Assembly: GCA_016930085.1 (NCBI GenBank)
Contig: JAFGHO010000129.1
Coordinates: forward strand, 1-51,759
Length of the DNA stretch: 51,759 bases
Direction: 5' to 3'
Source: Spirochaetales bacterium
Lineage (GTDB): Bacteria; Spirochaetota; Spirochaetia; SZUA-6; JAFGRV01
The notes beneath the pieces were generated by a model. The model had not been told where the DNA came from. It was given only the letters and a program-made list of their open reading frames with translations, and ran no database searches. Positions 18,248 to 40,480 of this stretch are shown piece by piece. A program made the translations under genes and the position numbers. Position 1 is the stretch's first letter. Each line of letters opens with the position of its first letter.

Positions 18248-19240
18248 ATGGAAGCCCGATTTTTCGAGAAAAAAGACGGAAAGAAGATTAAATGTCTACT
18301 CTGCCCGCATCGCTGTTTGATTGCCGACGGGAAAAGGGGTATATGCGGCGTGAGGTTAAACAGGAACGGAGACATGAATCTACCCTATTACGGGAAGCTT
18401 TCCGGTATTGCGACCGACCCGGTTGAAAAAAAGCCGCTTTATCATTTCTACCCCGGCAGGAGCATCCTCTCTGTCGGATTCTGGGGGTGTTCATTCAGGT
18501 GTCCTTTCTGTCAGAATTACAGCATCAGCCAAAAACTGAGTGAAAGCGGTGAATATATATCTCCCCGAAAACTGGTCGATATTGCGTCATCGCGCGGTTC
18601 GTTCGGAATCGCCTATACGTATTCGGAGCCCCTTGTGCATAGTGAATATGTCTTGGATACCTCTGCAATCGCGCACAGATATGGCCTGAAAAATGTTCTT
18701 ATTTCCAACGGGTATGTGAATCCGGGACCCGCAGAAGAACTCCTTGAGGTCATCGACGCCGCAAATATCGATTTGAAATCCTTCCAGTCCGATTTTTACA
18801 AAAAGGAAATCGGAGGCGGACTTTCCGAAGTAAAGGAGTTCATTTCTCTGGCCGCAGGGAGAGCACATATCGAAGTGACAACCCTGGTGATTCCGACCAA
18901 AAACGACAGTGAAGAAGAAATAGGCGCGATTGCCTCTTTTCTCGCGTCCATCGACAAAAATATTCCCTTCCACCTCTCATGCTATTATCCGACATACGAA
19001 TACTCGATTCCGCCCACAAGCAGAGCAACGATCGAACACCTTGCCGATACGGCCCGGAACCATCTCAATTATGTCTATCTGGGTAATGTGGGAGCAAACG
19101 AAACTAATACCTATTGTACCGAATGTCACGCGCTTCTTATCCGGCGGGCGGGGTACCGGATCTCGATCGTCGGAATCGAAGAGGGAAAGTGTTCGGAATG
19201 TCACGCATCCGTTCCAATTCAGGGATTATCGGCCAGTTGA
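18248..19240 (+). CDS. amrS: AmmeMemoRadiSam-system radical SAM enzyme
   Basis: The 330-residue protein has the radical SAM [4Fe-4S] motif as Cys81, Cys85 and Cys88 (GCSFRCPFCQN). It starts with a cysteine set (CLLCPHRC at 16-23 and GICG near 33) and the YYGKLSGIATDPVEKKPLYH block diagnostic of the AmmeMemoRadiSam radical SAM family (also annotated as pyruvate-formate-lyase-activating-like). Near the C-terminus a second CxxC pair set (CTECH and CSECH) looks like a zinc ribbon. The usual partners, AMMECR1 and Memo-like proteins, are not in this window. The system has been linked to tRNA or protein modification, but the reaction here cannot be read. It has an optimal ribosome binding site. Confidence 0.92.
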   Translation: MEARFFEKKDGKKIKCLLCPHRCLIADGKRGICGVRLNRNGDMNLPYYGKLSGIATDPVEKKPLYHFYPGRSILSVGFWGCSFRCPFCQNYSISQKLSESGEYISPRKLVDIASSRGSFGIAYTYSEPLVHSEYVLDTSAIAHRYGLKNVLISNGYVNPGPAEELLEVIDAANIDLKSFQSDFYKKEIGGGLSEVKEFISLAAGRAHIEVTTLVIPTKNDSEEEIGAIASFLASIDKNIPFHLSCYYPTYEYSIPPTSRATIEHLADTARNHLNYVYLGNVGANETNTYCTECHALLIRRAGYRISIVGIEEGKCSECHASVPIQGLSAS

Positions 19241-19385: not shown

Positions 19386-19841
19386 GTGGGCAGACTATCG
19401 CTAAAAGAAATATATACATCCGTCGTTTTCAAGCAGTTTATCACCTATATTCCTCTGGCCGGCCTTGCAACACTTGTCGACTGGGGGAGTTTTTATCTGT
19501 TCACAAGAATACTGCGATTCGATCCGTACATTTCGGTAATCGTTTCCTATACCCTCGGTGGATTGACCAACTATACGTTAAACAAGATTTTCAATTTCAG
19601 GGACAAGGTAAAGACGATCGGCTATCAGATGGCCGTGTATGCCGTTATTATGGCGATTTCTTATGGCCTTACGCTTCTTTTCATGTTCCTGCTGATTAAA
19701 GTGCTTTTTATAAACGAATTAGTTGCGAGGATGATGACAACGGCGGTTGTTCTCATTTATAATTTCATCATGCACAGGTCCTTTACATTCAATGAAAAGA
19801 TACAGGCGGTCATCGCGGAAAAGCTAAACAACCGTAAATGA
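19386..19841 (+). CDS. GtrA-family membrane protein (polyprenyl-phosphate sugar flippase-like)
   Basis: The 151-residue protein has four predicted membrane helices and the GtrA signatures: KQFITYIPLAGLATLVDWG in helix 1, GGLTNYTLNKIFNFRD after helix 2 and YNFIMHRSFTFNE at the end. GtrA proteins move a polyprenyl-phosphate-linked sugar across the membrane or assist the partner transferase. A GT2 of the GtrB/DPM-synthase type follows directly, which fits that pair. I used the GTG start at 19386, since AAGGGG lies about five bases upstream; no good ATG is available. Confidence 0.92.
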   Translation: MGRLSLKEIYTSVVFKQFITYIPLAGLATLVDWGSFYLFTRILRFDPYISVIVSYTLGGLTNYTLNKIFNFRDKVKTIGYQMAVYAVIMAISYGLTLLFMFLLIKVLFINELVARMMTTAVVLIYNFIMHRSFTFNEKIQAVIAEKLNNRK

Positions 19842-19979
19842 CAAAAGAATCGGTAAACGCACCCAAGACTCATTCCCTTGACATCAAAAGCACTCTTGTT
19901 TACAATAAGCCTCACAAACTCAATAGCGGTCCTGGCACTATCACCCTATTGGATATCCGGTTCCAAAAAGGAGAAACGT

Positions 19980-20966
19980 ATGCAGCAGTATAGCGAACCT
20001 GTTTCAATCATCATTCCCGCCTACAATGAAGAAACCTCGATTGGAGAAGAAATTCAACGTATCAAGGACGTTATGAACAAGGCGGGAATTATCTTCGAGA
20101 TCATCGTCGTCGACGATGCTTCAAAGGACAATACCGCCAATATAGCACAAGAAGCAGGTTCCCGTGTTTTCCATCACCTGACAAACAGGGGGTATGGTGC
20201 TTCGTTAAAAACCGGGATTTATGAGGCACGCTATGAAACGATTGTCATAACGGATGCGGACGGAACCTATCCCTGCAAGAAAATACCCGACTTGCTTGCC
20301 CATATCGATAATGCGGACATGGTCGTGGGAGAGAGGACGGGAAAGGATGTCAAAATTCCGCTGTTACGAAAGCCCGCAAAATGGTTTCTCCGAAAACTCG
20401 CACAGTTTGTCACGGGGGAGAAAATCAGGGACCTGAATTCCGGCCTAAGAGTTTTCAGGAAACGGTTCGTAAACCAGTATTTGACCATTCTCTCCGACCG
20501 GTTTTCATTCACCACAACGCTCACCGTCGCAGCGATAAGTGATGACTTTAAAATCGAGTACCTCCCCATCGATTACTATAAACGCCGGGGAAAATCAAAA
20601 ATCGTTCCCTGGGATTTTTTCAATTTTATCGTCCTGGTTCTTCGGCTTTCGATGTTTTTCAATCCATTGAAAGTATTTATTCCCATTTTTATCCTCTGTT
20701 TTACGACCGGGTTGATCAAGTTCGGCCTGGATATATATTTTGGCATTGTCAAAGCACAGCAAGCGGGCGTTCTCTTCTTCTCCCAACCGGTTATTTCGGG
20801 GACAACCCTGATCATGCTGCTCGGCGGTCTTATCATTCTCCTTATCGGAATGATGTCGGATGCACTCTCACGCCGGATTGCACAGGGGAGAATTCAGAAT
20901 TATAAAACCCACTGGAAGGGGTATATCCAGAAGAATCCGGGGATACCCGGCGATTCAAAAAAATAG
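19980..20966 (+). CDS. GT2 polyprenyl-phosphate glycosyltransferase with two membrane helices
   Basis: The protein is 328 residues from the ATG at 19980, which has AAGGAG six bases upstream; longer frames lack a site. The catalytic domain (about 5-225) starts with VSIIIPAYNEE and carries VVDDASKDNT and the metal-binding DADGTYP. The region RDLNSGLRVFRK is typical of dolichyl-phosphate-mannose/GtrB-like enzymes. Two helices (about 235-260 and 280-302) anchor it. The expected reaction is transfer of a sugar from a nucleotide donor to undecaprenyl phosphate at the cytoplasmic face. The GtrA-like protein upstream would then flip the product for use by the GT-C enzyme encoded next. Confidence 0.93.
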   Translation: MQQYSEPVSIIIPAYNEETSIGEEIQRIKDVMNKAGIIFEIIVVDDASKDNTANIAQEAGSRVFHHLTNRGYGASLKTGIYEARYETIVITDADGTYPCKKIPDLLAHIDNADMVVGERTGKDVKIPLLRKPAKWFLRKLAQFVTGEKIRDLNSGLRVFRKRFVNQYLTILSDRFSFTTTLTVAAISDDFKIEYLPIDYYKRRGKSKIVPWDFFNFIVLVLRLSMFFNPLKVFIPIFILCFTTGLIKFGLDIYFGIVKAQQAGVLFFSQPVISGTTLIMLLGGLIILLIGMMSDALSRRIAQGRIQNYKTHWKGYIQKNPGIPGDSKK

Positions 20967-21218
20967 AAGCCCTAGCTTCCGGCACGGCACTGTTCAGGTA
21001 GTCCACTGAGGAGGAATCGCGCGCTTGACGGACAGGACGTTCATATAACATAACCAATGCCGGAACCCGGTGGTAATTGACGGATATCTATTGTATCGTT
21101 AAGTCGCCGGGAAACGGGGTTATTAATGATAATCCACAAACGGTACTGGATACGACACCGTATAATACCTGAAAGATTATACTGTTATTCAGTTATCATT
21201 TTATAGAAGGCGGATACA
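20967..21218. other. Intergenic stretch before the GT-C gene
   Basis: 252 bases. There are isolated TATAAT (21161-21166) and TATACT (21178-21183) boxes close to the next gene, but no matching -35 box at the right distance for either. No gene or clear terminator is visible. Confidence 0.4.
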
Positions 21219-23411
21219 ATGGATACACGAGTCTTTGCCGTTATCATGGTCATTTTCCTTTTTTCTTCAATACCGGTATTTTCGGATGAAAATCTGCTTT
21301 TGAACCCCTCCTTCGAAGAAGAAAACAATGGGTGGGCGTCCTGGTGGTATATCCGGTCATACCACGAAGATCTTGCTACAACGGATTATATCTATGAAAC
21401 CGGTGACGCACATTCGGGCAACCATTATATCACCGTCAGAAACAAACGGGATAACGACGCGCGGATCTATCAGATCATCGAAGTGGAACCCCATACCGTC
21501 TATAAGCTTTCCGCCTGGATAAAAGCCGAAAACATCAGAAACGGTGTGGGCGGCAATATTTCGGTTGGCGACTCTTTCGCGTTCTCCAGGGACTTGCGAA
21601 ACACGAACGGGCTTTGGGAAAAGGTCGAGTTGTACGGTATCACCGGGCAATACCAGACACGGATGCCGGTCGCCCTGCGGGTGGGCGGTTGGTCGGGTTT
21701 TTCCACCGGGACGGTATCGTTTGATGATATACGGGCGGAGCGGGTGACCTCGCGGCCCCACGGGGTGAAGATTGAAAGTTTCAGTTTTGCCGACAATTAC
21801 GACGAAAATATCGTCAATGACTATTTCATCAGGGTCAATAATGATCGATATGCGTCGCACCGCCTCTACCTCTCTTTCTTTTTCGCCGCGCTTCTGTTTT
21901 TTACCGCACTTTTCTTCAGCCTGTATACAAAACTCCTGAAAGACAAAATCAAGGGACTTGAAGGGGCCGTCACGTTTGCCTTTCGAAAGCTATACTATGT
22001 TTTTATCGCGGTATTGTTTATCGTTTTTTTTATCGTTTTCATACCAAAGGCAAATAATATCACCCTTTATGATACACAATTCTCGTTTCTCATCGTCTTG
22101 ATTATTGCGATCGGCGCAGCTTCATATCTTTATAAAACGCATCAATTGACGCCGAAAAACGTCGCGGTCATCCTCATCGTCTTGGGTATCGCACTCCGCC
22201 TTACCTATTTCATCTATACCGATAGCAATTTGAGGCAGCACGATCTATGGGGCGCGTGGAGCCATCTCGAGTACATAAAATACGCGGCACAAACCTTTTC
22301 CCTGCCCGATGTGGGAACATATGAGGCATACCACCCGCCCGTTCATTATTTTCTTTCCGCCATCCCCTACAACGCGGCCAGGCTGTTCAATCTGGGCGAG
22401 GCCGGCGCGTTCAGGGCGGTCGAACTGCTTATGGTATTTTTCAGTTCCCTCACCCTTATTTTTGTCTACAAGATACTGGATAAAATAAAAGTAGACCGGC
22501 AGGTACTGCTTATTGGGGTCGCACTGGCAAGTTTTCATCCCTCGTTTATGTATATGTCCGTTTACTTAAACAATGATTCAACTGTGGCAATGTTTTATAT
22601 TATCAGCTTCTACTATCTCATCACATGGGTGCAGGAAAAAAAGCTTAAAAATGTCATCCTCCTCGCTGTTTTTATTTCTCTCTCGATGCTTACCAAGAAA
22701 TCGGCATTAATCCTTTTCCCGGTCAGCGGAATCGTATTTCTTGTTGAATTGTTCAAAGATAAAAAAAACACACGAAAATATATCAAACATGGTGTTATTT
22801 TTCTGATAATAGCCCTCCCCCTCGCCTTCAGTTATCAGATCCGCAATTATATCCTCTTCCGGCAGGATCTCTCCTACGCGGTGGCGCCGCTCGGACACAT
22901 CATGCCGAACAATCCGTATAACCTCTTCCATGTCTCGGTGGAAAATCTTTTAAAGCGGCCTTTTGTATCGGCGGCTCCGCATGAAAACACCTTCTTTCTC
23001 CGGATGTTAATTCGTACATCCCTGTTCAGTGTTTTCGAGTTCAACCGCCTCACCGATGTCGCCGTCGTCATGATGGCACTCTACCTTGTTTTTATCCTCG
23101 TCATTACACTCAATTTCATCCTTTTGAGAAAAAAGGATATGTCGCCTTACGGTTATGTGTTCCTGCTCAATTTCGCCGTCACCCTCATCGTGTATTTCAG
23201 AATGAGACTCTACTCGCCCTACGATTGTACCCAGGCCTTCAGATATATCGCGCCTTTTTTCATGATATCGCTCAGTTATTTTGCCGGGACCTCATTCGTC
23301 CGCTTTAGCGGGACAAAATACCCCGTATTGAACGGTATTGTCAAAGGAAGCTTCTGGCTGTTTTGTAGCGTTTCCGCCTTTTTTATTCTGATGATCGGTC
23401 CACCGTATTAA
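21219..23411 (+). CDS. GT-C glycosyltransferase with an N-terminal extracytoplasmic carbohydrate-binding-like domain
   Basis: The 730-residue protein begins with a signal peptide or anchor (1-22). A beta-sandwich follows (about 24-185) that looks like a CBM4/9-type carbohydrate-binding module: it starts NLLLNPSFEE and ends VSFDDIRAE. After that come a single helix near 212-232 and a polytopic GT-C core of about 11-12 helices. Core motifs of the ArnT/PMT-type fold are Asp342 (RQHD-LW) in the first loop and a HPPVHYF segment at 372, typical of lipid-linked sugar transferases. Donor sugars are normally polyprenyl-linked, as made by the upstream GT2. The fused domain may hold the acceptor glycan. 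A close relative of this domain is encoded at 24184-24978. Confidence 0.85.
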   Translation: MDTRVFAVIMVIFLFSSIPVFSDENLLLNPSFEEENNGWASWWYIRSYHEDLATTDYIYETGDAHSGNHYITVRNKRDNDARIYQIIEVEPHTVYKLSAWIKAENIRNGVGGNISVGDSFAFSRDLRNTNGLWEKVELYGITGQYQTRMPVALRVGGWSGFSTGTVSFDDIRAERVTSRPHGVKIESFSFADNYDENIVNDYFIRVNNDRYASHRLYLSFFFAALLFFTALFFSLYTKLLKDKIKGLEGAVTFAFRKLYYVFIAVLFIVFFIVFIPKANNITLYDTQFSFLIVLIIAIGAASYLYKTHQLTPKNVAVILIVLGIALRLTYFIYTDSNLRQHDLWGAWSHLEYIKYAAQTFSLPDVGTYEAYHPPVHYFLSAIPYNAARLFNLGEAGAFRAVELLMVFFSSLTLIFVYKILDKIKVDRQVLLIGVALASFHPSFMYMSVYLNNDSTVAMFYIISFYYLITWVQEKKLKNVILLAVFISLSMLTKKSALILFPVSGIVFLVELFKDKKNTRKYIKHGVIFLIIALPLAFSYQIRNYILFRQDLSYAVAPLGHIMPNNPYNLFHVSVENLLKRPFVSAAPHENTFFLRMLIRTSLFSVFEFNRLTDVAVVMMALYLVFILVITLNFILLRKKDMSPYGYVFLLNFAVTLIVYFRMRLYSPYDCTQAFRYIAPFFMISLSYFAGTSFVRFSGTKYPVLNGIVKGSFWLFCSVSAFFILMIGPPY

Positions 23412-23564
23412 CGGCGAGCGGCGACCGCCCGATCCGGCTTTGTTATCCGTTTTTGTTACTTGAAATATTTTTATCGCCGGTATATAGTTAAATCCACGCG
23501 TTGTTGTCGCCTTTTCGTATTGAGATTAAAATATATTGAAAATACTGAGAAAGGAACAGGGTAT

Positions 23565-24143
23565 ATGATTGGTAAAATCCAGACACCCGGCTGGCACCTT
23601 GAAGGCAGACTGGAAGAAGGCGGCAGGTGGACCGTCCCTATTGACCAATATACATTCATTATCGGCCGGGACGAACAATGCCACCTGAAATTACTCCCTG
23701 ATTATATATCGAGGAAGCATGCGGAAATCCGGACCCGCGGGACTGAGCTTTACATAAAGGATCTGAAAAGCAAAAACGGGACATTTGTAAACGAAAGAAG
23801 AATATGTGAGGAAGTAAAACTCGAGGACAAGGATGATATCAGATTCGGAGACCTCAAGTTCCGTGTCCTGATGAACGATCGGAAATCGGTTCGACGGCTG
23901 TCTGAAACATCGCTTTTGAAAATTCCTTTGAAGGTGAAAAGTTTCATGAATCACTACGATATTTCAAGACGTGAAGAACAGGTCCTCTCTTACATTCTCC
24001 AGGGAAAATCGACAAAAAAGATAGCGGATATTCTCTGCATTTCCGAAGGCACGGCGAAAAACCACATCCTCAGCATCTATAAAAAGACGGATACCCACTC
24101 GCGATTCGAACTCTTTACATTATTCAACAATTTTTCAGTGTAA
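23565..24143 (+). CDS. FHA-domain protein with a LuxR-type helix-turn-helix
   Basis: The protein is 192 residues from the ATG at 23565 (AAGGA nine bases upstream). Residues about 25-100 form a forkhead-associated domain with the phosphothreonine-binding set GR (FIIGRDEQ), SRKHAEI and KSKNGTFVN. Residues about 125-190 are a LuxR/GerE DNA-binding domain (SRREEQVLSYILQGKSTKKI, then SEGTAKNHI-SIYKK). This pairing suggests a transcription factor whose activity depends on binding a phosphothreonine on a partner or on itself, so a Ser/Thr kinase is expected elsewhere. It lies between the two genes with the shared carbohydrate-binding-like domain, which makes them plausible targets. Confidence 0.9.
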   Translation: MIGKIQTPGWHLEGRLEEGGRWTVPIDQYTFIIGRDEQCHLKLLPDYISRKHAEIRTRGTELYIKDLKSKNGTFVNERRICEEVKLEDKDDIRFGDLKFRVLMNDRKSVRRLSETSLLKIPLKVKSFMNHYDISRREEQVLSYILQGKSTKKIADILCISEGTAKNHILSIYKKTDTHSRFELFTLFNNFSV

Positions 24144-24183
24144 CGGATTTCACCTTCACCGCTTTCCCGAATCTCAAACCATC

Positions 24184-24978
24184 TCAATCCGCCGCTTTGC
24201 CGCTTCCCGCTTCACTTTTCCCGCTCTTTTCTTTTTCCGGTTTATAGACCAGGAGAAAAACGGTAAAAACAGCGATCCCCGCGAGGATGATAACGGCAAC
24301 GGCAATAAACTGTAATGTTTCGGGCATGATCTTCCACCCCCCTCCTCCGCGTTGATCTCCTGTGTTCACCCCGCCGGTATTTACCTGTTGCCGGTCCTGC
24401 GCCTCTTTCTTTTCAATAACATAGTGTATCGATCCCGGCGGAATCGTCGCGACCTTTTCCATCGCGGCGTCGTCAAACGAGGCTTTTCCGGTCGTTATCG
24501 CCCCATAGCCCCCGAGCCGCAGGGCGACCTCGACCGCTGCGATATCGTCTTCGACGGTAAAGTAAAACTCGACATATTTCCAGTCTGCGGTTGTTCCCTT
24601 TACGTCCTGCGAAATGAACCAGTAATCGTTCAGCGAAAGATTCGCACCGATATTACTCTCGGCGACACCTTCCGTTTTTATCCACCCGGATATCCGGTAG
24701 GAAGCGTGTTGTTCGACGGCAATACGCTGAATAAGCCGCGCATCATTGTCGCCCCTGTTGACGATGGTAAGGTAATGTTCACCACCCTTCGCATTGCCTT
24801 TTTCGATAAAAAAATCACTCGCTTCCGGAGTGAACGTATATATCTGCCAGGGCGAAATAATCGAATCGCCTTCTTCCATCCCGGGATTGACGAGCAGATT
24901 CCCAGCCGACACAGGCAGAAGCGGGAGGATCAGCATGAAGGCCATCATGACAACATGCCGTTTACTGTAAGGTCCCAT
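24184..24978 (-). CDS. Membrane-anchored protein with a carbohydrate-binding-like domain
   Basis: The 264-residue protein has a signal peptide (about 1-25), a CBM-like beta-sandwich (about 26-185), a Gly/Gln-rich linker and a C-terminal membrane helix (about 222-245) followed by a Lys/Glu-rich cytoplasmic tail. The domain clearly matches the one on the GT-C enzyme: NLLVNPGMEE against NLLLNPSFEE, a shared RGDNDAR/KRDNDAR turn, and ASFDDA near the end. It would sit outside the membrane, tethered. A role as an accessory or receptor for the same glycan is inferred. AAGGAAG precedes the ATG. It converges on the FHA-LuxR gene. Confidence 0.8.
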   Translation of the reverse strand: MGPYSKRHVVMMAFMLILPLLPVSAGNLLVNPGMEEGDSIISPWQIYTFTPEASDFFIEKGNAKGGEHYLTIVNRGDNDARLIQRIAVEQHASYRISGWIKTEGVAESNIGANLSLNDYWFISQDVKGTTADWKYVEFYFTVEDDIAAVEVALRLGGYGAITTGKASFDDAAMEKVATIPPGSIHYVIEKKEAQDRQQVNTGGVNTGDQRGGGGWKIMPETLQFIAVAVIILAGIAVFTVFLLVYKPEKEKSGKSEAGSGKAAD

Positions 24979-25203: not shown

Positions 25204-27171
25204 ATGTGCGGTTTTGTCGGTTTTTTTAATCCCGGCGGCGGAAGGAAAGATCCGAAACTTGAAAAAATGTGCGCCGATATGGGGGTCTTTCTTCGTCATC
25301 GCGGACCGGATGCTTCCGGTCTCTATTATGACGGGAGATGCTGCCTTAACCATCAACGGCTTTCAATTATCGATCTTACCGATTCAGGCAGGCAACCGAT
25401 GTCAAACGAAGACAAAAGTATATGGATTGCATATAACGGTGAGACCTATAATTTTCGTGACCTGAAGCGTCGTTTCCGCCTGGAGGCGAACGGCCACAGG
25501 TTCGCTTCCAGAACGGATACCGAGGTTCTCATCCACCTTTACGAAGAGCTGGGAAGCGGGTTCACCGAAGAACTGAACGGCATGTACGCCTTTGCCATCT
25601 GGGATTCACGCACCGGAAGCCTTTTCCTTGCGCGCGATCCCTACGGCATCAAACCGCTTTTCTATATGTATTCGGGCGGGATATTTTGGTTCGCTTCGGA
25701 ACTCAAAGCCCTCGTCGCATGTCCGTATTACGAACCCTCACCATCCCTTGAAGGACTTTACCACTTTCTTGGTTTCGATTATATACCCGGCGAACTGACG
25801 GCATTCGAGGGCATCCGCGAACTCAGGCCGGGGCATATCTGTGAGGTCGGTATAAAAAACCCGGAACCGCGAATCAGACGGTTTTTCGATATCCATTACC
25901 GGGTCGATGCGGCGATGAAGGAATCCGACGCCGTGGCGCTGACACTCGAGTACCTCGAAGGGGCTGTCGAACGGCAGCTTGTCTCCGACGTTCCGGTGGG
26001 CGTGATGCTATCGGGCGGCATGGATTCGAGCGCACTCACCGCACTCATGGCCCGTATACGGGGTAATGCCGATTTTCACACCTTTTCTTTAGCCTTTCAA
26101 GACGAAAGCTTTGACGAATCCCCCTTTGCCCGGATCGTTGCCGATGATATCGGTACGGTTCATCATGAGGTCCTCGTCACGCCGGAAAAGGTACTCGGAC
26201 TTCTGCCGAAATACCTTGTCTCCATCGATGAACCGTATGCGGACGGTTCGGCGATCCCGACATACCTCCTTTCCGAATGCGCAAAGGATTATGTGACCGT
26301 TCTTTTATCCGGCGAGGGGGGAGACGAGATTTTCGCCGGATACGACACCTATGCCGCATACAAGATGCGGTCCCTCTACAGGCGCCTCGTTCCCGGTGCC
26401 CTCAGAAGGGGCGTCATACGCCCGCTCGTATACATGCTTCCGGTATCGCATAAAAAACTGAGTTTCGATTTCAAGGCAAAACGCTTTACCGCGGGCGCCG
26501 AATACGATGTCCCCCACTCACATTTTTTCTGGCGCGCGGTCCTCTCGGAAGAAATGAAAAAGGAAATACTTAAGGGGCCCGGACGTTTTTCCGCATTCGG
26601 AGAATCGCAATGCTTTTTCCGCGAAGCATATGATGCGTGCGACGCGGAAGACGACCTGAACAGACTCATGTATATCGAGTATTCCTATCACCTGCCCGAC
26701 GATCTGATGATAAAAAACGACAGGATGACAATGGCGCACTCCCTCGAAGCGAGGGTTCCCTTTACCGACAACGAGCTTGTCGGTTTCATGGCGACAGTGC
26801 CGGTGAAATACAAAATGAAAGGAATGCGCAAGAAACATCTTCTCCGCGAAGCCTTAGCCGGAATTCTTCCGGATGGCATTCTCAACAAGAAAAAAGTCGG
26901 ACTCGAAATGCCGTATTCACGCTGGTTCCGCCGGGAGTTGCGGGAAATCGCGGAGCAATCCATGTCAAAGGAAAAACTCGAAAAAACGGGGCTTTTCAAT
27001 GCCGGGGGCATCAGGCGTCTCTGGGATGAACATATCGGTCTTAAAAAGGATCACGGCCGGTTTTTCTGGGGATTACTCAATTATATGCTCTGGTACGATG
27101 TCTATATTGACAGAAAGGTATTTCCACACTATCTTTCGGATGTACGATTACCGAGAACATTGGTACAATAA
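25204..27171 (+). CDS. asnB: AsnB-type glutamine-dependent amidotransferase
   Basis: The 655-residue protein has the class II glutaminase domain starting at the nucleophile Cys2 (MCGFVGFF, after removal of Met), with RHRGPDAS and NGETYNFRDL. The synthetase domain has the ATP pyrophosphatase loop SGGMDSS at 270-276. It adds ammonia from glutamine to a carboxylate activated as an AMP ester, normally aspartate. Such proteins inside polysaccharide loci (for example WbpS) instead amidate uronic acids, and the glycan context makes that a real alternative. AAGGAAG precedes the ATG. The next gene begins right at its stop (TAA then GTG), so the two are one operon. Confidence 0.92.
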   Translation: MCGFVGFFNPGGGRKDPKLEKMCADMGVFLRHRGPDASGLYYDGRCCLNHQRLSIIDLTDSGRQPMSNEDKSIWIAYNGETYNFRDLKRRFRLEANGHRFASRTDTEVLIHLYEELGSGFTEELNGMYAFAIWDSRTGSLFLARDPYGIKPLFYMYSGGIFWFASELKALVACPYYEPSPSLEGLYHFLGFDYIPGELTAFEGIRELRPGHICEVGIKNPEPRIRRFFDIHYRVDAAMKESDAVALTLEYLEGAVERQLVSDVPVGVMLSGGMDSSALTALMARIRGNADFHTFSLAFQDESFDESPFARIVADDIGTVHHEVLVTPEKVLGLLPKYLVSIDEPYADGSAIPTYLLSECAKDYVTVLLSGEGGDEIFAGYDTYAAYKMRSLYRRLVPGALRRGVIRPLVYMLPVSHKKLSFDFKAKRFTAGAEYDVPHSHFFWRAVLSEEMKKEILKGPGRFSAFGESQCFFREAYDACDAEDDLNRLMYIEYSYHLPDDLMIKNDRMTMAHSLEARVPFTDNELVGFMATVPVKYKMKGMRKKHLLREALAGILPDGILNKKKVGLEMPYSRWFRRELREIAEQSMSKEKLEKTGLFNAGGIRRLWDEHIGLKKDHGRFFWGLLNYMLWYDVYIDRKVFPHYLSDVRLPRTLVQ

Positions 27172-27186
27172 GTGACGGAACAAACC

Positions 27187-28602
27187 ATGAATGAACAAAA
27201 AAAGAGAATCGTTATCGCCGGTGCGGGTCCTGCGGGCCTTGCCTGCGGTTACTCCCTGCTGCGTCGCTTCGGTGAATCGATCGAATTGACGATCATCGAA
27301 AAGGAGGCGGCGGCAGGCGGACTCGCTTCAGGCTTCGAGTACAGGGGACTGATCTTCGATTACGGAAGTCACCGTCTTCATCCCACGACCCGTAAGGATA
27401 TTCTGGACGATATCCGGGGTCTTCTCGGCGACGACCTCCTCGACAGGCCAAGGAACGGGCGTATCCTTCTCCTCGACCGGTTCGTAAAATTTCCGCTGAA
27501 GATGACCGATTTCATCTTCCGGCTTCCGCCCGCCTTTTTTATCGGTATACTTTCCGATATGCTCGCTAAACCGTTCAGAAAGCGTGTTTCAAACCCGGAC
27601 ACCTTCGCCGAAGTTCTCTCGGCCGGCCTGGGAAAGACGATCTGCACCGATTTCTATTTTCCCTACGCGGAAAAACTCTGGGGGCTCCCCCCCGAGAAGC
27701 TTTCCTATATCCAGGCGCAACGGCGTGTATCGGCCGACAGTATCGGAAAGATCATACGAAAAGTACTCTCGATTATTCCCGTTTTCAGAAAAAAAGGTGC
27801 GGGGCGGTTCTATTATCCCAGAAAGGGATTCCTGCAGCTCGTTTCCGCGTTTGCCGATGCAATAAACGACATGGGGGGAACGATTCTTCTTTCCGAGAAA
27901 CTCGCCGAAATCGTGATCGAGAAACAGGCGGTTACGACATCGGGGGGCAAAAAAATCGGCTATGACCTTCTCCTCTCGACAATTCCGGTTACCGATCTCC
28001 TCAACGCAATGAGTCCCGCCCCCGGTACGGACGTCCGCGAAGCGGCCGCGGCCATCGGGTACCGCGGGATGCTTTTTTGTTACCTTATTCTCGATACACG
28101 GCAGTTTACCCCCTTTGACGCACATTATTTCCCCGATAAAGCCCTTGTATTTTCCAGGCTTTCGGAACCTAAAAATTACAGCGCTTCCGTCCTTCCCGAA
28201 GGCCTAACAGGACTTTGCGCGGAAATACCGTGCGAGGTCGGCGGGAAATTATGGAACGCCTGCGAAAAGGAGATTACCGGGCTGGTTCTCAGGGATCTCG
28301 CCGGCGTGGGCCTCGGGGTGGATCACCTTGTAAAGGAAAGCTTTGTCAGACGGACCGCCCATGCCTATCCGTCGTACGACCTTGTCTTCGAAAGGAAAAT
28401 CAATACCGTCGAGGCATACCTCGACGGTCTCCCCCGTATTGTCTCGTTCGGGCGCCAGGGACTTTTTGTCCACGACAATACGCACCACACGATCGAGATG
28501 GGGTATGCCGCCTCGGCATGCGTCACACCGACCGTTTCCTGGGACAGGGAAAAGTGGAGCTCCTCAAAAGGGGAGTTTGCCACCCACGTTGTCGAAGACT
28601 GA
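27187..28602 (+). CDS. FAD-dependent oxidoreductase, UDP-galactopyranose mutase/protoporphyrinogen oxidase-like
   Basis: The protein is 471 residues from the ATG at 27187. A GTG at 27172 touching the upstream stop is equally possible and would give tighter coupling. The FAD-binding Rossmann motif GAGPAGLACG is at 12-21, followed by the acidic strand end IIEKEAAAGGLAS and the GSHRLHP segment typical of amine-oxidase-like flavoproteins in glycan loci. Later blocks are LWGLPPEKLSY and a C-terminal GRQGLFVHDNTHHTIEMG. The family includes UDP-galactopyranose mutase relatives and protoporphyrinogen oxidase. In an operon with the AsnB-like enzyme, a sugar-modifying role is more likely than haem synthesis. 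The substrate is not readable. Confidence 0.85.
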   Translation: MNEQKKRIVIAGAGPAGLACGYSLLRRFGESIELTIIEKEAAAGGLASGFEYRGLIFDYGSHRLHPTTRKDILDDIRGLLGDDLLDRPRNGRILLLDRFVKFPLKMTDFIFRLPPAFFIGILSDMLAKPFRKRVSNPDTFAEVLSAGLGKTICTDFYFPYAEKLWGLPPEKLSYIQAQRRVSADSIGKIIRKVLSIIPVFRKKGAGRFYYPRKGFLQLVSAFADAINDMGGTILLSEKLAEIVIEKQAVTTSGGKKIGYDLLLSTIPVTDLLNAMSPAPGTDVREAAAAIGYRGMLFCYLILDTRQFTPFDAHYFPDKALVFSRLSEPKNYSASVLPEGLTGLCAEIPCEVGGKLWNACEKEITGLVLRDLAGVGLGVDHLVKESFVRRTAHAYPSYDLVFERKINTVEAYLDGLPRIVSFGRQGLFVHDNTHHTIEMGYAASACVTPTVSWDREKWSSSKGEFATHVVED

Positions 28603-28645
28603 CCGTGTAAATGTTCTCCGTCCCCCGGCAGGGAAACGGCATCAT

Positions 28646-29956
28646 TTACTTTCTGCCGAGACCGAGATAAGTAAATCCGGCTTGTTTCACGTTCTCGATA
28701 TCCAGTACATTCCTCGTGTCGAGGATGATGGTCTCGCGCATCTTGTTTCGCAGCCGCTTCAGGTCGAGGTTTCTGTATTCGTTCCATTCGGTGAGGATGA
28801 TAATCGCATCGGCGTTATTCGCCGCCTCGAACTCATCGGTAAAATATGAGATCGAAGGCCCCTTGAACAACTGCCTGAAGTTGTCGATCGCCTTTGGATC
28901 GTGGGCCCTTATGACTGCCCCCTCCTCGAGCAGTTTTCTCACGATCGAGACAGCGGGGGAGTCGCGGATATCGTCGGTTTCCGCCTTGAAAGCGAGACCG
29001 AATATCGCAATCGTCTTCTTTCTGACCGTACCCGTCAGTTTTTTCAGCTTTTCGACCATTAAAAGTTTTTGCCGCTCGTTTGCCGCTATCGCCTCCTTGA
29101 CGAGACTCATATCAACGCCGTACTTGTCGCCGATATGGGAGAGGGCCTTCGTGTCTTTCGGAAAACAGCTTCCCCCGTAGCCTGGGCCGGGGTGAAGGAA
29201 TTTCGGACTGATTCGTCCGTCCATCCCCATGGACCGGGCGATCATATGTATATCGGCGCCGATGACTTCGGCAAGGTTCGCCATCTGGTTGATAAAGGTG
29301 ATTTTAATCGCGAGAAAGGTATTGCTAGCGTATTTGACAAGCTCCGCCGTTTCGAGATTGCACCAGACAAAGGGCGTCTGTATCAGGTACAGGGGGCGGT
29401 AGATATCTTCCATGTAATCGCGCGCCCTCTCTGACTCGTATCCGACCACTATCCTGTCGGGATGAAAAAAATCGTGGACCGCCTTGCCTTCACGTAGAAA
29501 CTCCGGGTTCGAGACGACATCGAAATCCTCCGAACCCGTCTTTTCGGCTATTTCCGTCTTTATCCACCTGTTGGTACCGATCGGGACCGTCGATTTCGTG
29601 ACGATGACCTTGTATGAATTAAGATGCTCACCGATCGTCGAGACGACCGCCTCTATCTGGGACATATCCACCTCGCCGCCGCTTTTCGACGGGGTACCGA
29701 CCGCGATAAAAATAACGTCGGCTTTTTCTATCGAGCCGCCGAGGTCGGTACTGAAAGTAAGCCGTCCAGCCTTGATATTGCGTTTGAGATATTCCTCAAT
29801 CCCCGTTTCATAAATGGTCGGAATACCCTTGTTGAGTTTATCGATTTTCTCACTGTCGATATCCACCCCCGTAATGCTGTTGCCGAAGTCCGCAAGGCCG
29901 ACAGCGGCGACAAGCCCGACATATCCCGTTCCGATGACAGTAATTTTCTTTGACAT
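28646..29956 (-). CDS. ugd: UDP-glucose 6-dehydrogenase
   Basis: The 436-residue enzyme oxidises UDP-glucose to UDP-glucuronate with two NAD+. The NAD-binding GTGYVGL is at 9-15, the VGTPS loop near 86, the conserved AELVKYASN lysine at 208 and the catalytic Cys264 in PGPGYGGSCFPKDT. The start at 29956 has AAGGAG eight bases upstream; a longer frame would run through the promoter. It is convergent with the FAD oxidoreductase and gives the region a source of uronic acid, which could feed the glycan enzymes upstream. Confidence 0.96.
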   Translation of the reverse strand: MSKKITVIGTGYVGLVAAVGLADFGNSITGVDIDSEKIDKLNKGIPTIYETGIEEYLKRNIKAGRLTFSTDLGGSIEKADVIFIAVGTPSKSGGEVDMSQIEAVVSTIGEHLNSYKVIVTKSTVPIGTNRWIKTEIAEKTGSEDFDVVSNPEFLREGKAVHDFFHPDRIVVGYESERARDYMEDIYRPLYLIQTPFVWCNLETAELVKYASNTFLAIKITFINQMANLAEVIGADIHMIARSMGMDGRISPKFLHPGPGYGGSCFPKDTKALSHIGDKYGVDMSLVKEAIAANERQKLLMVEKLKKLTGTVRKKTIAIFGLAFKAETDDIRDSPAVSIVRKLLEEGAVIRAHDPKAIDNFRQLFKGPSISYFTDEFEAANNADAIIILTEWNEYRNLDLKRLRNKMRETIILDTRNVLDIENVKQAGFTYLGLGRK

Positions 29957-30008
29957 GCCGTTATCTCCTTTTCTTACCTCTTGTGATGCATATAAATACC
30001 TGCCTGTC

Positions 30009-30037
30009 ACTATATGATACACTCCCGATAAAAACAA
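30009..30037 (-). promoter_or_regulatory. Promoter of ugd
   Basis: On the minus strand TTGTTT (30037-30032), 17 bases, then TATAGT (30014-30009), about 50 bases before the start. Confidence 0.6.
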
Positions 30038-30077
30038 GTCCCCTGCGCCTGTTTCGGCAAGGCGGAAGGCGTTTTCA

Positions 30078-30977
30078 TCAGGCGGGATAGACCAGACCGA
30101 ACAGCAGCGCGTACAAAATGATAACGGTAACATAGATGAACAGGAAAATGGGCCTTATCGTCGAGGCGAGTGCCATAAGCGGGGTGATCCTCGTCGCGGG
30201 TCCGACAAAGAGAAAGGCCAAAGCCGATGCCTTACTCATTCCCTGATCTATAAGCGCCCGGATGAGGGGAATCGTTCCGCCCCCGCAGGCATAGAGGGGG
30301 ACACTGAGAATCGAAGCGACGAATATCCCGTAGAATTCCCCAGGCTTGAAAAGGGAAAATATCAAAGAAGCGGGAACCGTGTATTTTATCACCGACCCAG
30401 CCATAATGCCGATAAGGACGTAAAATCCGACAAACTGAAGGTTTTTCCAGACCGATGTTAAGAAATCCCGTACACGGAAAGGCTTTTTTTGACCGGCGGC
30501 CCCCCTTCCGGGAAAAGAACGGCCGCCCGAAACGGTCGGATTGAGAATGAACCCTGCGGGGACAAGCCGTACAATCAGGCCAAAGAGGATGCCGAAAACA
30601 AGAACGGAAAGCAGCCGGACCAGGGCGATCTCCGCGCCCAGCCCGCCCCAGGTAATGATAAAAAGCTGCGGATTCATAAGTGAGGAAACGGAGAGAAAAG
30701 TGACAAGCGGGGCCGGGGGAACACCCGATGAAAGAAGCTGAACGACGATGGGAACGGTTCCATACGTACAAAGCGGAGACAGAATACCGATAATTGTCGC
30801 AACAATGATTGAGAGAACGGGTGAGGAGGTGAAGATCAGACGAATCGCCTTTTCCCAGTCGGTGAGTTTGATCAGTTCGCCGATGATAACCCCCCCGATC
30901 AGGTACGGGCCGAGTGAAACGAGCATCTTCCCCGCATCAAGGAAGATAAGGTAGAGTTTGTTGATTACGATTTCCAT
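30078..30977 (-). CDS. ArsP-type permease (PF03773-like)
   Basis: The 299-residue membrane protein has about eight helices arranged as two related halves, with matching core segments SPLCTYGTVPI (about residue 66) and PLYACGGGTIPLI (about 225). This is the mark of the ArsP_1/DUF318 permease family, which exports organoarsenicals or metal-related compounds, although most members are uncharacterised. A hydrophilic loop (about 148-172) joins the halves. It lies 18 bases after the DUF362 gene on the same strand and is almost certainly in the same operon. Both key cysteines are present. Its ribosome binding site is weak, suggesting coupling to the upstream gene. Confidence 0.88.
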   Translation of the reverse strand: MEIVINKLYLIFLDAGKMLVSLGPYLIGGVIIGELIKLTDWEKAIRLIFTSSPVLSIIVATIIGILSPLCTYGTVPIVVQLLSSGVPPAPLVTFLSVSSLMNPQLFIITWGGLGAEIALVRLLSVLVFGILFGLIVRLVPAGFILNPTVSGGRSFPGRGAAGQKKPFRVRDFLTSVWKNLQFVGFYVLIGIMAGSVIKYTVPASLIFSLFKPGEFYGIFVASILSVPLYACGGGTIPLIRALIDQGMSKASALAFLFVGPATRITPLMALASTIRPIFLFIYVTVIILYALLFGLVYPA

Positions 30978-30995: not shown

Positions 30996-33080
30996 TCATT
31001 CGGTAAGAATAAGCGTGCCGAACACATCCGCGTCGATCCACCCGCGGTTCTTATCCTCACCCTCGATATATACCGATCCGATAAAACTTTCTCTCCTGCC
31101 GCTGGCGTCGCTGTCGCAATAAGCAAGCGCGAAGCCCATCTCTTTCCCCGCCACAAGGACGACCTGCTGATTGTCTTCTCCGTAACGGTAGTTTTCGTCA
31201 TATACGGTCACCGCCATTTCCCATATGGAGAGGTTGCCGGTCGAGTTTCGTTTCACTTCGATATGATCGTGATAGACTCGCGGTTTCGAATCCGTATGAA
31301 GATCGACCACGTCATAGGCAATGGAAATATGGTAGGCGAACGCATTATAGGAAGCGGTATGGATTCCCCCCGATTTGTCTTCATCGATAAACAATTCAAG
31401 GCAATCGTCGTTATAGTATTCATCGAGTGGATCGGTCCGAATATCGCTTAAAACGTCGTCTTCAATTTCAACAAGAAGAAACAGGCGGCGATCATTCCAG
31501 CTTATCTTGAACCTGCCGGAAAAATCAGATTCGCCGTCGAGCGACCCCAGCCAGAGACGGTCGATCGGGTACCAGCGCGCCTTTTCCCAAAAGCGTTCAT
31601 CCGCCTTTCCATCGATAACAGGCGGTGAATCGGTTCTGACCGCTTCATGTATTCCTTCTCCGGGAAGCGGCAGGAACACGGTTTTTACCGTTTTATTGAG
31701 AAACCTGTCGTATGCGAAAACCGTAAGCCGTTCCGCTTCCGTCAGGTCCGTTGGTATCGATAGGGAAGTAAACCCTTCACGTATCTGTCCGCCGACCGGC
31801 GAACCGTCGAGAAACAGCCGTACGGCGTGGAGATCCTGATCGTGGCGGATATTCAGGGAAAGGCCTTTGTCCGTGACTACCGCCCTGGCTATCGAGATCA
31901 GGGGACCGGCGGTATCCGTTATCCTCGAACCTTTGCACGCGGGATTGGCCGACCTTCCCTCAAAAGGCTTTCTAACCTCATCGACCTCTTTGCCTTTGAC
32001 GTTGATCCTCGCGGTATCGATATTTCCCACGCCATCGGCATTGAGGAGACAGAGGTACGGGACCGAGTAGGGATCCCATCCCATAATGAGAGATTCGATC
32101 GTATCGACGGCGACCGCGTCGCCGGCCGCGAGGATAAGCCGCATATTCATCTGATCCCGGCTGATATCCGTTGTCCCGCTTATTTCCCTCGACGGTGTGG
32201 GACCGTTTTGTATTCCCTGCAACCCGTCCATGACGATAAAATCGACCGGACGTACCATATAATAATCGTGGATCCAGTAATGAAGGTCCATACTCTCATG
32301 ATCGACCATACTGTTTCTTCCGGGGTGTTCGCGGGAATTGCCGTAAATATTACCGGGGGTCGCGCCGATTCCCATGTTCTTGATCGCGCCGGTAATTACC
32401 GCATGCCAATGATTTTTGAGACAGGGGATCGTGATAACGACATCGGCTTCCGCAAGGCGCCTGTTGACATAATACTCTTTGTGCAAGCGTCCGCTTTCAT
32501 GTGCCACTTTGATGAGGTTATCGGAATCCTTCTCCCGGTACCCCCCCGAATCTTCTTCGATGGCGATAAACTCATCGACACCGGGAATCGTTGAGTGCGT
32601 GTATTTATGGTGGAGAAAGGCCTGCTTTGTGAATATCGATGAACCTTCCATGACAAAAACCTTCCCCGAGGGATTCAGGTCCCTCACCAGTTGTACGACC
32701 GCCTTTGTCACACGGTAATCGGTTGTCGTACCGTTGACTTCGGGGGAAAGCGGCCTCCCCCCCCATCCGGGGAGGGTGTAATCATTCACCGTCACCAGAT
32801 TCGGTTTTATAACGACCACATCCCCGTCCCTCACGAGGTCGCTGAATCCGCCCGCCATACCGACCGCTTCACGGACCATCGACGCAATTTCGGATTCGGT
32901 AATATCTTCCGCTTTCGCTTCCCGTGATTGTACGATTGCCACCGTGGACGGCGGCAATCCGCGCGGTGAGAAATCCTCAACCCGTACGCTCAGACATTGC
33001 GACATATTGAGAAGACCCGCGAGGCCCATACCGCAGATCAAAAACGATGAAATAATCGTTTTATATCGTTTTACATTCAT
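30996..33080 (-). CDS. Exported DUF362 protein with C-terminal CBM9-like domain
   Basis: The 694-residue protein has an N-terminal signal peptide (about 5-28, with Cys29 or a nearby position as a poor lipobox). A DUF362 domain follows (about 45-370, with VVIKPNLV, KNHWHAVITGAIKNMGIG and DAVAVDTIES). A small Ig-like segment (about 395-470) is next, then a CBM9-like sandwich (about 478-694, starting PPVIDGKADERFWEKA and containing DDCLELFIDEDKSGG). Many DUF362 proteins carry a ferredoxin-type iron-sulphur domain; none is seen here. The role is unknown. An extracytoplasmic binding or redox-related function is inferred from its export and domains. It leads an operon with an ArsP-type permease. 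Confidence 0.85.
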   Translation of the reverse strand: MNVKRYKTIISSFLICGMGLAGLLNMSQCLSVRVEDFSPRGLPPSTVAIVQSREAKAEDITESEIASMVREAVGMAGGFSDLVRDGDVVVIKPNLVTVNDYTLPGWGGRPLSPEVNGTTTDYRVTKAVVQLVRDLNPSGKVFVMEGSSIFTKQAFLHHKYTHSTIPGVDEFIAIEEDSGGYREKDSDNLIKVAHESGRLHKEYYVNRRLAEADVVITIPCLKNHWHAVITGAIKNMGIGATPGNIYGNSREHPGRNSMVDHESMDLHYWIHDYYMVRPVDFIVMDGLQGIQNGPTPSREISGTTDISRDQMNMRLILAAGDAVAVDTIESLIMGWDPYSVPYLCLLNADGVGNIDTARINVKGKEVDEVRKPFEGRSANPACKGSRITDTAGPLISIARAVVTDKGLSLNIRHDQDLHAVRLFLDGSPVGGQIREGFTSLSIPTDLTEAERLTVFAYDRFLNKTVKTVFLPLPGEGIHEAVRTDSPPVIDGKADERFWEKARWYPIDRLWLGSLDGESDFSGRFKISWNDRRLFLLVEIEDDVLSDIRTDPLDEYYNDDCLELFIDEDKSGGIHTASYNAFAYHISIAYDVVDLHTDSKPRVYHDHIEVKRNSTGNLSIWEMAVTVYDENYRYGEDNQQVVLVAGKEMGFALAYCDSDASGRRESFIGSVYIEGEDKNRGWIDADVFGTLILTE

Positions 33081-38374: not shown

Positions 38375-40414
38375 CTATTCTCCGCAGAATCCGTCGACGA
38401 GCCCCACGTAATACTGCGCGATGAGGAGCGCGTCCACGATATTGACGGTACCGTCACAATTGGTATCGGCGACCGATATATCGAAGCCGGCGGGCTCGAG
38501 TCCCACATAATACTGCGCTGCCAGAAGTGCGTCCACAATATTGACCGTGCCGTCACCATTGACGTCCCCCATCAAAAAACCGGGCGTCGGTACGGCAGTT
38601 CCACCCGGGGGTGCCGTCGGGTCCGGCGTTGAAGTGGGCGGTGAGGTCGGCGGAGTAGTGACGACGGGCACCGGTGTCGTATCGCCCGTGGAATGCCCCA
38701 CATTCGTGTTTTTCCCGCTCGTTCCCAGGATCACTTCATGGTCGAGCCCGATGAACGCGCCCGAACCCGTCCGCCAGAGACTCTGTCTGACGATGTTGTA
38801 TTTCGACTCGTCGATCGTATTCCAGTCCTCCCCCACGATACCGCCGGTATCGTGGGAATCCGGATTGAAACACCAGAAGGTATGATTGAGACCGTTCTGA
38901 TCGATGAACGATGCGAGGGCGGAAAGCCATCGCTGGTTGTCCCCGCCCAGTTTGCCGCCCCACTCGCCGATGAGAATAGGGGCGGTATTCGATTCGACGA
39001 TAAAATACCAGTTCGGCCGCCAACATTCCTCAGCGAGTGAATTGATATCAAAGGAATGATCGAACCACGGCTGCACATAAATATCAGGACCGTAGTCATG
39101 GGGCGAATAGACAAGCTTGTTCCGATGGCTTCCGAGGTCGACCGGATAATCGGCAACGCCCCGCAGATTTCCGCCCCACCAGTTGCAGAGGTAATCGTAT
39201 TTGTCTGTCGATCCGTAGGCTGCCCCCTCGACCGGATAACATTCGATACCCTCCACCATGATGAGGATGTTCGGATTCACGGAAAGTATCGATGATGCGA
39301 TCTCCCCGGCCGCCTTTCTCCAGTTGTTCGAATCGTTCGACCCGTCCCATTTTGCGGTTCCCGTCACATCGACCCATGATTGGCCGTGCGGTTCGTTGAA
39401 AATATCCGCGGCGATGACGGTATCGTCATCGCCGTAACGCTCGGCAAGCCATTGCCAACCGGATTTCAGCGCGGCAAGCGAATACGTACCGTTATACCAG
39501 AGCGCTTCCCGTACATTATTGTTCAGGCAATGCATGTCGAGCATCACTTTCAAACCAACGGTTTTACAATATTCCATGATGGTATCGAGCAGTGTCAGAC
39601 TGGAAATACCGTCGATTCTTGGGTTGATCGTGCCGTCGACAAACTGTACCTTCGTGTCCCGGCCGGCTTTCCAGTCCGATACGATCTCGAGACTCAGGGG
39701 AAGCCTGAGAATATTGAATCCACGTTCGCTGATGAGGTTGAATCCGTGCATCCAGTTGACTGACTGGAGGCCGCCGAGACCGAGCGGATTGGTCTCGAAA
39801 CCGAACCAGTTGATGCCGGTAAGCCGTACCGCATTGCCGTTTCTGTCCCGGATCGTGTTTCCCGAGACCGAAAGCCAATCGTCACCCGAAGGAGGCGGCG
39901 GCGGCGGTGAGGTCGGTGCCGGCGGTTCGTTTCCCCACACGAGGGAGGCGTTTCTGTAACAGGTTACTTTGGTGTGGGGGGAAAAATCGGTAAAGGAGGG
40001 ATCGAATGAATAATCATCTGTCTGAATGTAATAACCGTGACTCGTTTTTTCGATACGAAGCTGTATTTCACCGCTGTCGCCCCCGGGGGGAATCGAACCG
40101 GCACCGCTTCCGAAAGCTATCCGGAGATATTCGCCGGTAAAACTTCCGGAAACATTTGAAGAGCCCACGGCGGCGTAATCGATACTCAGTTCGGATTCCA
40201 CATATCCTTCCGCAGTAAACCAGTACCGTACCGTCAGGTCCGAAAGTGCCAGAGACGAATCGGATTTATTGAGAATTTTAAACTGCGGCTTGATTTTATT
40301 GATTTCCTCTTCGGGTTGCGCGCACCGGTAGAGGACTTCAATTTCCTGTGAAAAAAGAGTGCTTGCGGCGATCAACGTCATGATAAAAACGACGATGGCG
40401 ATATACTTTTTCAT
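38375..40414 (-). CDS. Endoglucanase: CBM3, GH5 catalytic domain, dockerin
   Basis: The 679-residue secreted protein has a signal peptide (1 to about 22) and a CBM3 cellulose-binding module (about 25-162, with LSDLTVRYWFT, GSSNVSGSF and SGAGSIPPGG). A Pro-rich linker leads to a GH5 catalytic domain (about 178-550, acid/base Glu341 in FNEPHG, nucleophile Glu484 in LIGEWGG). A second linker leads to a type I dockerin at the C-terminus, with two calcium loops (GDVNGDGTVNIVDALL and DTNCDGTVNIVDALL). It hydrolyses internal beta-1,4-glucan bonds outside the cell. The start at 40414 has AAGGGG nine bases upstream. The dockerin implies docking to a cohesin protein. Confidence 0.95.
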   Translation of the reverse strand: MKKYIAIVVFIMTLIAASTLFSQEIEVLYRCAQPEEEINKIKPQFKILNKSDSSLALSDLTVRYWFTAEGYVESELSIDYAAVGSSNVSGSFTGEYLRIAFGSGAGSIPPGGDSGEIQLRIEKTSHGYYIQTDDYSFDPSFTDFSPHTKVTCYRNASLVWGNEPPAPTSPPPPPPSGDDWLSVSGNTIRDRNGNAVRLTGINWFGFETNPLGLGGLQSVNWMHGFNLISERGFNILRLPLSLEIVSDWKAGRDTKVQFVDGTINPRIDGISSLTLLDTIMEYCKTVGLKVMLDMHCLNNNVREALWYNGTYSLAALKSGWQWLAERYGDDDTVIAADIFNEPHGQSWVDVTGTAKWDGSNDSNNWRKAAGEIASSILSVNPNILIMVEGIECYPVEGAAYGSTDKYDYLCNWWGGNLRGVADYPVDLGSHRNKLVYSPHDYGPDIYVQPWFDHSFDINSLAEECWRPNWYFIVESNTAPILIGEWGGKLGGDNQRWLSALASFIDQNGLNHTFWCFNPDSHDTGGIVGEDWNTIDESKYNIVRQSLWRTGSGAFIGLDHEVILGTSGKNTNVGHSTGDTTPVPVVTTPPTSPPTSTPDPTAPPGGTAVPTPGFLMGDVNGDGTVNIVDALLAAQYYVGLEPAGFDISVADTNCDGTVNIVDALLIAQYYVGLVDGFCGE

Positions 40415-40480
40415 AATTTCAACCCCTTTTTTTGACACCTCGTTATTGTTTTACCCTGGAAGGTTTTTCCTTCTATGTCT

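Follow-up and report, generated by a model that had tools for sequence, protein, structure and literature searches.

A CBM4/9-like domain fused to GT-C glycosyltransferases and tethered beside them in Spirochaetales

What does a domain resembling carbohydrate-binding modules (CBMs) do on a membrane glycosyltransferase, and is a small anchored protein encoded close by a second use of the same domain? Both questions are raised by a stretch of 51,759 nucleotides from a Spirochaetales bacterium (GenBank assembly GCA_016930085.1, contig JAFGHO010000129.1), here called the window, which is a complete contig of the 5.36-Mb, 135-contig host genome (G000; G and L label genomes and loci throughout). It encodes P0001, a GT-C glycosyltransferase with an N-terminal CBM-like domain, and P0002, a membrane-anchored protein that carries such a domain without an enzyme. 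We found that the two belong to a family in which one domain is reused on at least four kinds of GT-C, is split between fused and tethered forms, and has a variant joined to PilZ. This reuse is the new element; a literature search of incomplete coverage found no publication on it.

One domain in several settings

P0001 (residues 8 to 210) and P0002 (residues 9 to 210) align by BLASTP over 206 residues with 35% identity and 53% positives (117 bits, E = 7e-34). The domain common to both is about 160 residues long, and the envelopes of hidden Markov model (HMM) searches agree with the limits that a preliminary description of this DNA had drawn by eye. The motifs quoted there were all recovered in the two sequences, namely ENLLLNPSFEEE / GNLLVNPGMEEG, RDNDAR / GDNDAR and SFDDI / SFDDA. 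That the two domains are homologous is virtually certain. In a tree of 55 sequences, the P0002 domain falls among stand-alone orthologues (support 99/96), whereas the P0001 domain joins those of GT-C orthologues (100/98); the pair are thus not mutual closest relatives, and a recent local tandem duplication could be ruled out as their origin. The same tree holds approximately five independent stand-alone lineages.

The preliminary description spoke of a domain used twice. It located both copies correctly, but there are far more, forming a genome-wide family that includes PilZ fusions: the host genome alone holds 12 proteins with the domain, counting one broken gene. Among 60 relatives searched (the genomes compared being metagenome-assembled [MAGs]), it is present in all five genomes of the family, host counted, with 6 to 14 matches each, and is sparse elsewhere. 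Across the class Spirochaetia it occurs in 13 of 395 genomes; the wider phylum adds weak matches only, and plasmid records gave no relative at E ≤ 1e-3. When 84,980 species genomes were scanned for the window type of GT-C, four loci were found, all in Spirochaetales MAGs whose isolate names carry the prefix Zod. We read this prefix as Zodletone spring, and two of the five family genomes are Zodletone MAGs.

The layout is nearly constant in 57 copies, with a signal peptide or lipobox followed by the domain, usually a linker of 13 to 44 residues, and a transmembrane helix. A lipobox-like N-terminal motif is present in about 10 copies, GT-C fusions among them. Beyond the helix lies a GT-C of one of at least four kinds (the window type, the Leptospira LA_3751 type, the PMT/GT87 type and one further type), a PilZ domain, or a short charged tail; in other families, two GT-Cs follow in one chain. 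The exceptions are two soluble proteins and one broken gene. The former (L081:1140-2867 and L096:6721-8433) are arylsulfotransferase-like, with a Pfam ASST match in L081, and carry the domain at the C terminus with no membrane helix afterwards. The latter (L024:7969-10289; G000 C34) encodes a dockerin and a cut-off domain, then GT-C fragments, in separate open reading frames (ORFs), and is either a pseudogene or an assembly error. A 791-residue L025 protein was left out of the family, as it is more distant, gives a weak CBM_4_9-like match and has no transmembrane helix by hydropathy.

The two-enzyme chains (L098:7076-11044, L103:6949-10653, L104:6888-10589 and L105:9419-13171) run to 1,233 to 1,322 residues, the domain being followed by GT87-like and PMT enzymes; in L098, a discoidin-like domain was recognized between the two GT-Cs. 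A GT2 gene adjoins these tandem GT-C genes, and GtrA is also found at L103 and L104.

Fold and position at the membrane

P0002 scores above the Pfam cutoff for CBM_4_9 (PF02018), with 34.9 bits versus 25.9, while P0001 (25.2 bits) falls 0.7 bit short; membership of the latter follows from its homology to the former. Matches to CBM_4_9 at E ≤ 0.01 were obtained for 47 of 55 domain copies. The sequence of P0002 alone found no match in the PDB, and solved CBMs were reached by profiles only: a profile of the 55 copies, built from sequence, reaches CBM70 (7.4e-8), CBM61 and CBM16 (about 5e-4). The AlphaFold model of P0002 (mean predicted local distance difference test score [pLDDT] of 73, the domain mostly 80 to 94) is a jelly roll whose best PDB matches by Foldseek were CBM70 (1.2e-8; the pneumococcal hyaluronan-binding CBM), CBM4-2 (6.3e-7), CBM61 (7.4e-7) and CBM16 (1.2e-6). 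For P0001 (mean pLDDT of 63), the domain was modeled mostly at about 70 to 90 and the GT-C part poorly; the domain matched CBM70 (8e-7), CBM16 and CBM4, and the membrane part matched oligosaccharyltransferases (OST), PglB and ALG9. The two models thus fall in the same CBM fold classes, with no differing folds, as the preliminary description had anticipated. On these models and profiles, the domain is almost certainly a member of the CBM4/9-type jelly-roll superfamily.

Two aromatic positions are kept among copies that share only 25 to 50% identity overall: F49 of P0002 (Y48 of P0001) is aromatic in 91% of copies, and Y158 (W158 of P0001) in 93%. In the profile search, F49 aligns with a Trp of CBM16 that we take to have a role in ligand binding. 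Other strongly conserved columns of P0002 are W44, Q84, Y94, W133, G156, G164 and F168-D169. These observations bear on an alternative, that the domain is a protein docking or dimerization module which joins GT-Cs or a protein substrate (secreted glycoproteins) and binds no sugar. The most strongly conserved columns do resemble general PF02018 core residues and make up no proven sugar site, and several relatives are protein O-mannosyltransferases, whose substrates are proteins. However, the top matches in both fold and sequence are sugar-binding CBMs, and the two aromatic positions, which are family specific, persist in more than 90% of copies despite the low overall identity. We regard docking as unlikely, though it is the most serious of the rival explanations.

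The domain is preceded by an export signal and, in other copies, the same helix leads to a PilZ domain, which is cytoplasmic; the domain itself is therefore placed outside the cytoplasm. Hydropathy and the model helices agree with this, as the preliminary description had it, and we have very little doubt that the domain is tethered outside the membrane. In the P0001 model, helices 217-240, 259-274 and 283-306 precede the helix leading into the catalytic loop, and from this helix parity the domain and the active site would lie on the same side of the membrane.

Association with GT-C genes and a proposed role

Six of the 10 PMT_2 GT-Cs in the host genome are fused to the domain. Of the stand-alone copies, for their part, 14 of 15 have a GT-C gene no more than three genes away, compared with 1 of 10 of the PilZ copies, which serve as an internal control (Fisher P = 5e-5); these counts take in orthologues and so are not fully independent. 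Twelve of the 15 adjoin the GT-C gene directly, most of them overlapping it or within about 60 bp, and the sole copy without a nearby GT-C sits near a contig end. Moreover, a domain-less GT-C of 508 residues beside the L021 stand-alone copy is homologous to the fused GT-C of L015 (4e-17), and one of 444 residues beside the L073 copy is homologous to the first half of L098 (1e-38). Fusion in one place and adjacency in another is the Rosetta-stone pattern, a classical sign of joint action, and suggests, from gene arrangement, that the separate proteins work together. A functional link between the domain and GT-Cs is very probable. The adjacency of enzyme-free copies to GT-C genes would also fit a subunit role, in line with the docking alternative.

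A different concern is that the domain may be a passive spacer or folding aid, spread by gene duplication, with no present role in the reaction. GT-Cs without it do occur in the same genomes, for example, a 526-residue paralogue that shares 60% identity with the fused enzyme of L095. Against this, the sampled genera of the family have retained the domain, both on at least four kinds of GT-C and in separate genes beside GT-Cs, and we consider a purely passive role very improbable.

The PilZ copies raise yet another possibility, namely, that tethered copies sense glycans and report on envelope or extracellular polysaccharide inward, most clearly in the PilZ fusions, with the stand-alone copies acting as decoys or receptors and not as components of the transferases. 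The domain-helix-PilZ proteins at L017, L020, L069, L070, L072, L090, L100 and L105 form a single clade (support 97/99), and most clade members have above-cutoff PilZ matches together with the RxxxR and [DN]xSxxG motifs. Both motifs and PF07238 matches were found in these eight, making them putative receptors of cyclic di-GMP; L099 gave no Pfam PilZ match. P0002, however, ends in a short charged tail with no signaling domain, and GT-C genes accompany the stand-alone copies but not the PilZ copies. We consider this sensing role improbable.

We favor, with moderate confidence, the reading that the domain is an accessory of Gtr-like glycosylation dependent on polyprenyl-phosphate sugars, in which it binds the acceptor glycan in cis or in trans. 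In this scheme, GtrA and the GT2 enzyme would supply and flip the lipid-linked sugar, and the GT-C enzyme would transfer it outside the membrane. One transmembrane helix would keep the jelly-roll module just outside the inner membrane; the N-terminal domain of the GT-C could then hold the growing or acceptor glycan beside the active site, while tethered P0002 might aid glycan binding in trans. We infer, then, that the domain binds sugar, that its ligand is the acceptor, and that P0002 works with the neighboring GT-C. Acceptor holding, which the preliminary description put forward as an alternative to steering of chain length, is a reasonable idea because the CBMs of EmbC, EmbB and GT136, the MIR domain of PMTs, and BcsB give precedent. 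We would put acceptor-glycan binding by the domain itself at slightly better than an even chance.

Several points weigh against this proposal. Jelly-roll domains of the CBM4/9 class can also mediate contacts between proteins or play a structural part. The AlphaFold models were built on eight sequences, with shallow alignments. The combination of domain and GT-C is limited to a few spirochaete lineages, so that the domain is not generally needed on a GT-C. Finally, GT136 remains active after removal of its CBM (PMC11127046).

A broader and decidedly tentative extension of acceptor binding is that some Spirochaetia use one interchangeable, membrane-tethered glycan reader, placed in cis on at least four kinds of GT-C, in trans as a stand-alone protein, and fused to PilZ, through which cyclic di-GMP signaling could read the same outer glycan; the module would then be a shared interface of glycosylation outside the cytoplasm. 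Beyond mycobacteria and yeast, little is understood of how GT-Cs choose and hold acceptors, and related GT-Cs with the module fused, separate or absent form a natural series for testing an acceptor-binding module. The known repertoire would grow by the trans arrangement, in which a tethered module accompanies a domain-less GT-C, and by the PilZ fusion.

The cassette, its surroundings and known systems

The features of the window discussed here are collected in Table 1.

Table 1. Coordinates of the domain pair and of the genes around it in the window
Feature	Position	Strand	Basis
Radical SAM protein, head of cassette	18248..19240	+	PF04055 3.8e-16; 66% identical gene in same place in G002
GtrA/DPMS-type membrane protein, probable donor flippase	19386..19841	+	PF04138 1e-19; homologue in same place in G002
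GT2 polyprenyl-phosphate-sugar synthase, probably making the donor (start codon uncertain)	19878..20966	+	Glycos_transf_2 4.1e-28
P0001, domain-fused GT-C glycosyltransferase, 730 aa	21219..23411	+	PMT_2 1.9e-12, PMT 1.7e-9; OST/PglB/ALG9 fold matches
CBM4/9-like domain of P0001, residues 24-187	21288..21779	+	HMM envelope; CBM_4_9 25.2 bits; CBM70/CBM16/CBM4 fold match
First transmembrane helix after P0001 domain, residues 217-240, tether to GT-C part	21867..21938	+	Hydropathy, model helix
First extracytoplasmic loop of GT-C core, with invariant R339-Q-H-D342 and E369-x-Y-H-P-P	22242..22346	+	Six orthologues/paralogues
FHA-LuxR regulator between the pair	23460..24143	+	FHA 2e-20, GerE 7.9e-15
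P0002, stand-alone tethered domain protein, 264 aa	24184..24978	-	CBM_4_9 2.4e-8, above cutoff; AlphaFold model
C-terminal membrane anchor of P0002, residues 221-244, then charged cytoplasmic tail	24247..24318	-	Model helix, hydropathy, K/R excess after helix
CBM4/9-like domain of P0002, residues 26-187	24418..24903	-	HMM envelope; fold match to CBM70 (1.2e-8), CBM4, CBM16, CBM61

The GT-C part of P0001, of GT39-GT83-like type, passes the PMT_2 cutoff clearly (48.1 bits versus 26.1) and also matches TIGR03663, but no arabinosyltransferase model; its fold matches come from a part of the model that is of low confidence. D342 and E369 lie between model helices 312-333 and 374-389, which fits a role as putative catalytic acidic residues. 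GtrA, GT2 and the PMT_2 GT-C stand in order at 19386-23411, and the order radical SAM-GtrA-GT2-GT-C-stand-alone gene is kept in G002; G004 keeps the GT2, GT-C and stand-alone genes together. The GT2 protein is 78 to 81% identical to its counterparts in two other genomes (81% in G002), whose genes adjoin the orthologous GT-C gene. Judged by its predicted products, the cassette is a three-component layout for extracytoplasmic glycosylation with a tethered module added. The FHA-LuxR gene was set aside as probably no part of it, since it is missing between the orthologous pairs of G002 and G004, whose GT-C and stand-alone genes are 18 to 19 bp apart.

Beside the pair, genes at 25204-30133 encode an asparagine-synthase-type amidotransferase (eps_aminotran_1 3.7e-151, below cutoff), an FAD amine-oxidase-like protein and a UDP-glucose dehydrogenase, and may hint at a polysaccharide that contains uronic acid. 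Farther along, a DUF362 protein (30996-33080, minus strand) has a CBM9-like C-terminal domain, an unusual pairing, and a GH5 cellulase with CBM3 and dockerin (38375-40438, minus strand) is one of the dockerin enzymes. Dockerin matches number 148 in the host genome, which also has a scaffoldin-like ORF of 1,680 residues that combines CBM3 and a dockerin with no fewer than three cohesin matches (G000 C104:60685-64512; L116:10677-15719, minus strand). Of the four other family members sampled, three also have cohesins, in part on very long ORFs, whereas 16 genomes from the rest of the order have none; a cellulosome-like system in Spirochaetota is possible. The PilZ-type copies have conserved neighbors of their own (L020:10187-15902, L069:8925-12999, L100:1506-6577 and L105:2135-7210): two secreted proteins of about 180 residues, a protein of 275 to 292 residues with weak Fn3/WxLIP-like matches, and one of 685 to 1,114 residues with CarboxypepD_reg matches in those scanned. 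From this gene content, the cluster is possibly a surface fiber system.

As to known systems, the likeness of the domain to Pfam CBM_4_9 and to CBM70, CBM16, CBM4 and CBM61 is one of fold and remote sequence similarity; unlike the membrane-tethered spirochaete copies, known CBM_4_9 members are mostly found on secreted hydrolases and lyases. The tie to GT-Cs drawn in the preliminary description is borne out by the fusions and the neighboring genes, and experiments on other GT-Cs offer a precedent for acceptor holding, but its implied premise that a CBM on a GT-C is unprecedented does not hold; the pairing is uncommon, yet known (PMC3044687, PMC11127046, PMC7341804). The mycobacterial EmbA, EmbB and EmbC proteins are likewise GT-Cs with beta-sandwich CBMs outside the membrane (PMC7341804, PMC3044687), and AftD is also a GT-C with a CBM. 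The CBM of EmbC binds acceptor analogues, and normal extension of lipoarabinomannan depends on it (PMC3044687); EmbB has its CBM at the N terminus, anchored by additional transmembrane helices ahead of the GT-C core (PMC7341804). Emb proteins belong to other GT-C families, whereas the spirochaete domain is reused on several kinds of GT-C and as separate tethered proteins; homology to Emb/AftD (GT53) was not found, profile searches of the PDB with the domain returning no Emb or AftD chain.

The three-component GT136 system of Citrobacter also comprises a polyprenyl-phosphate-sugar synthase, a flippase and a CBM-bearing GT-C, ORF12, whose CBM binds the unmodified acceptor polysaccharide (PMC11127046). 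There the CBM is C-terminal and the flippase of the MATE type, whereas the spirochaete cassette has an N-terminal domain and a GtrA-like flippase. Eukaryotic PMTs likewise join a GT-C core to an exoplasmic domain that binds sugar and is believed to guide the acceptor or the product (PMC12705809), although MIR is a beta-trefoil set between late helices and the spirochaete domain is an N-terminal jelly roll. For the trans arrangement, the parallel is BcsB of bacterial cellulose synthase, which is also membrane anchored and carries carbohydrate-binding domains beside a membrane glycosyltransferase (PMC11470070); its partner is a GT2 synthase, whereas that of the spirochaete protein is a GT-C.

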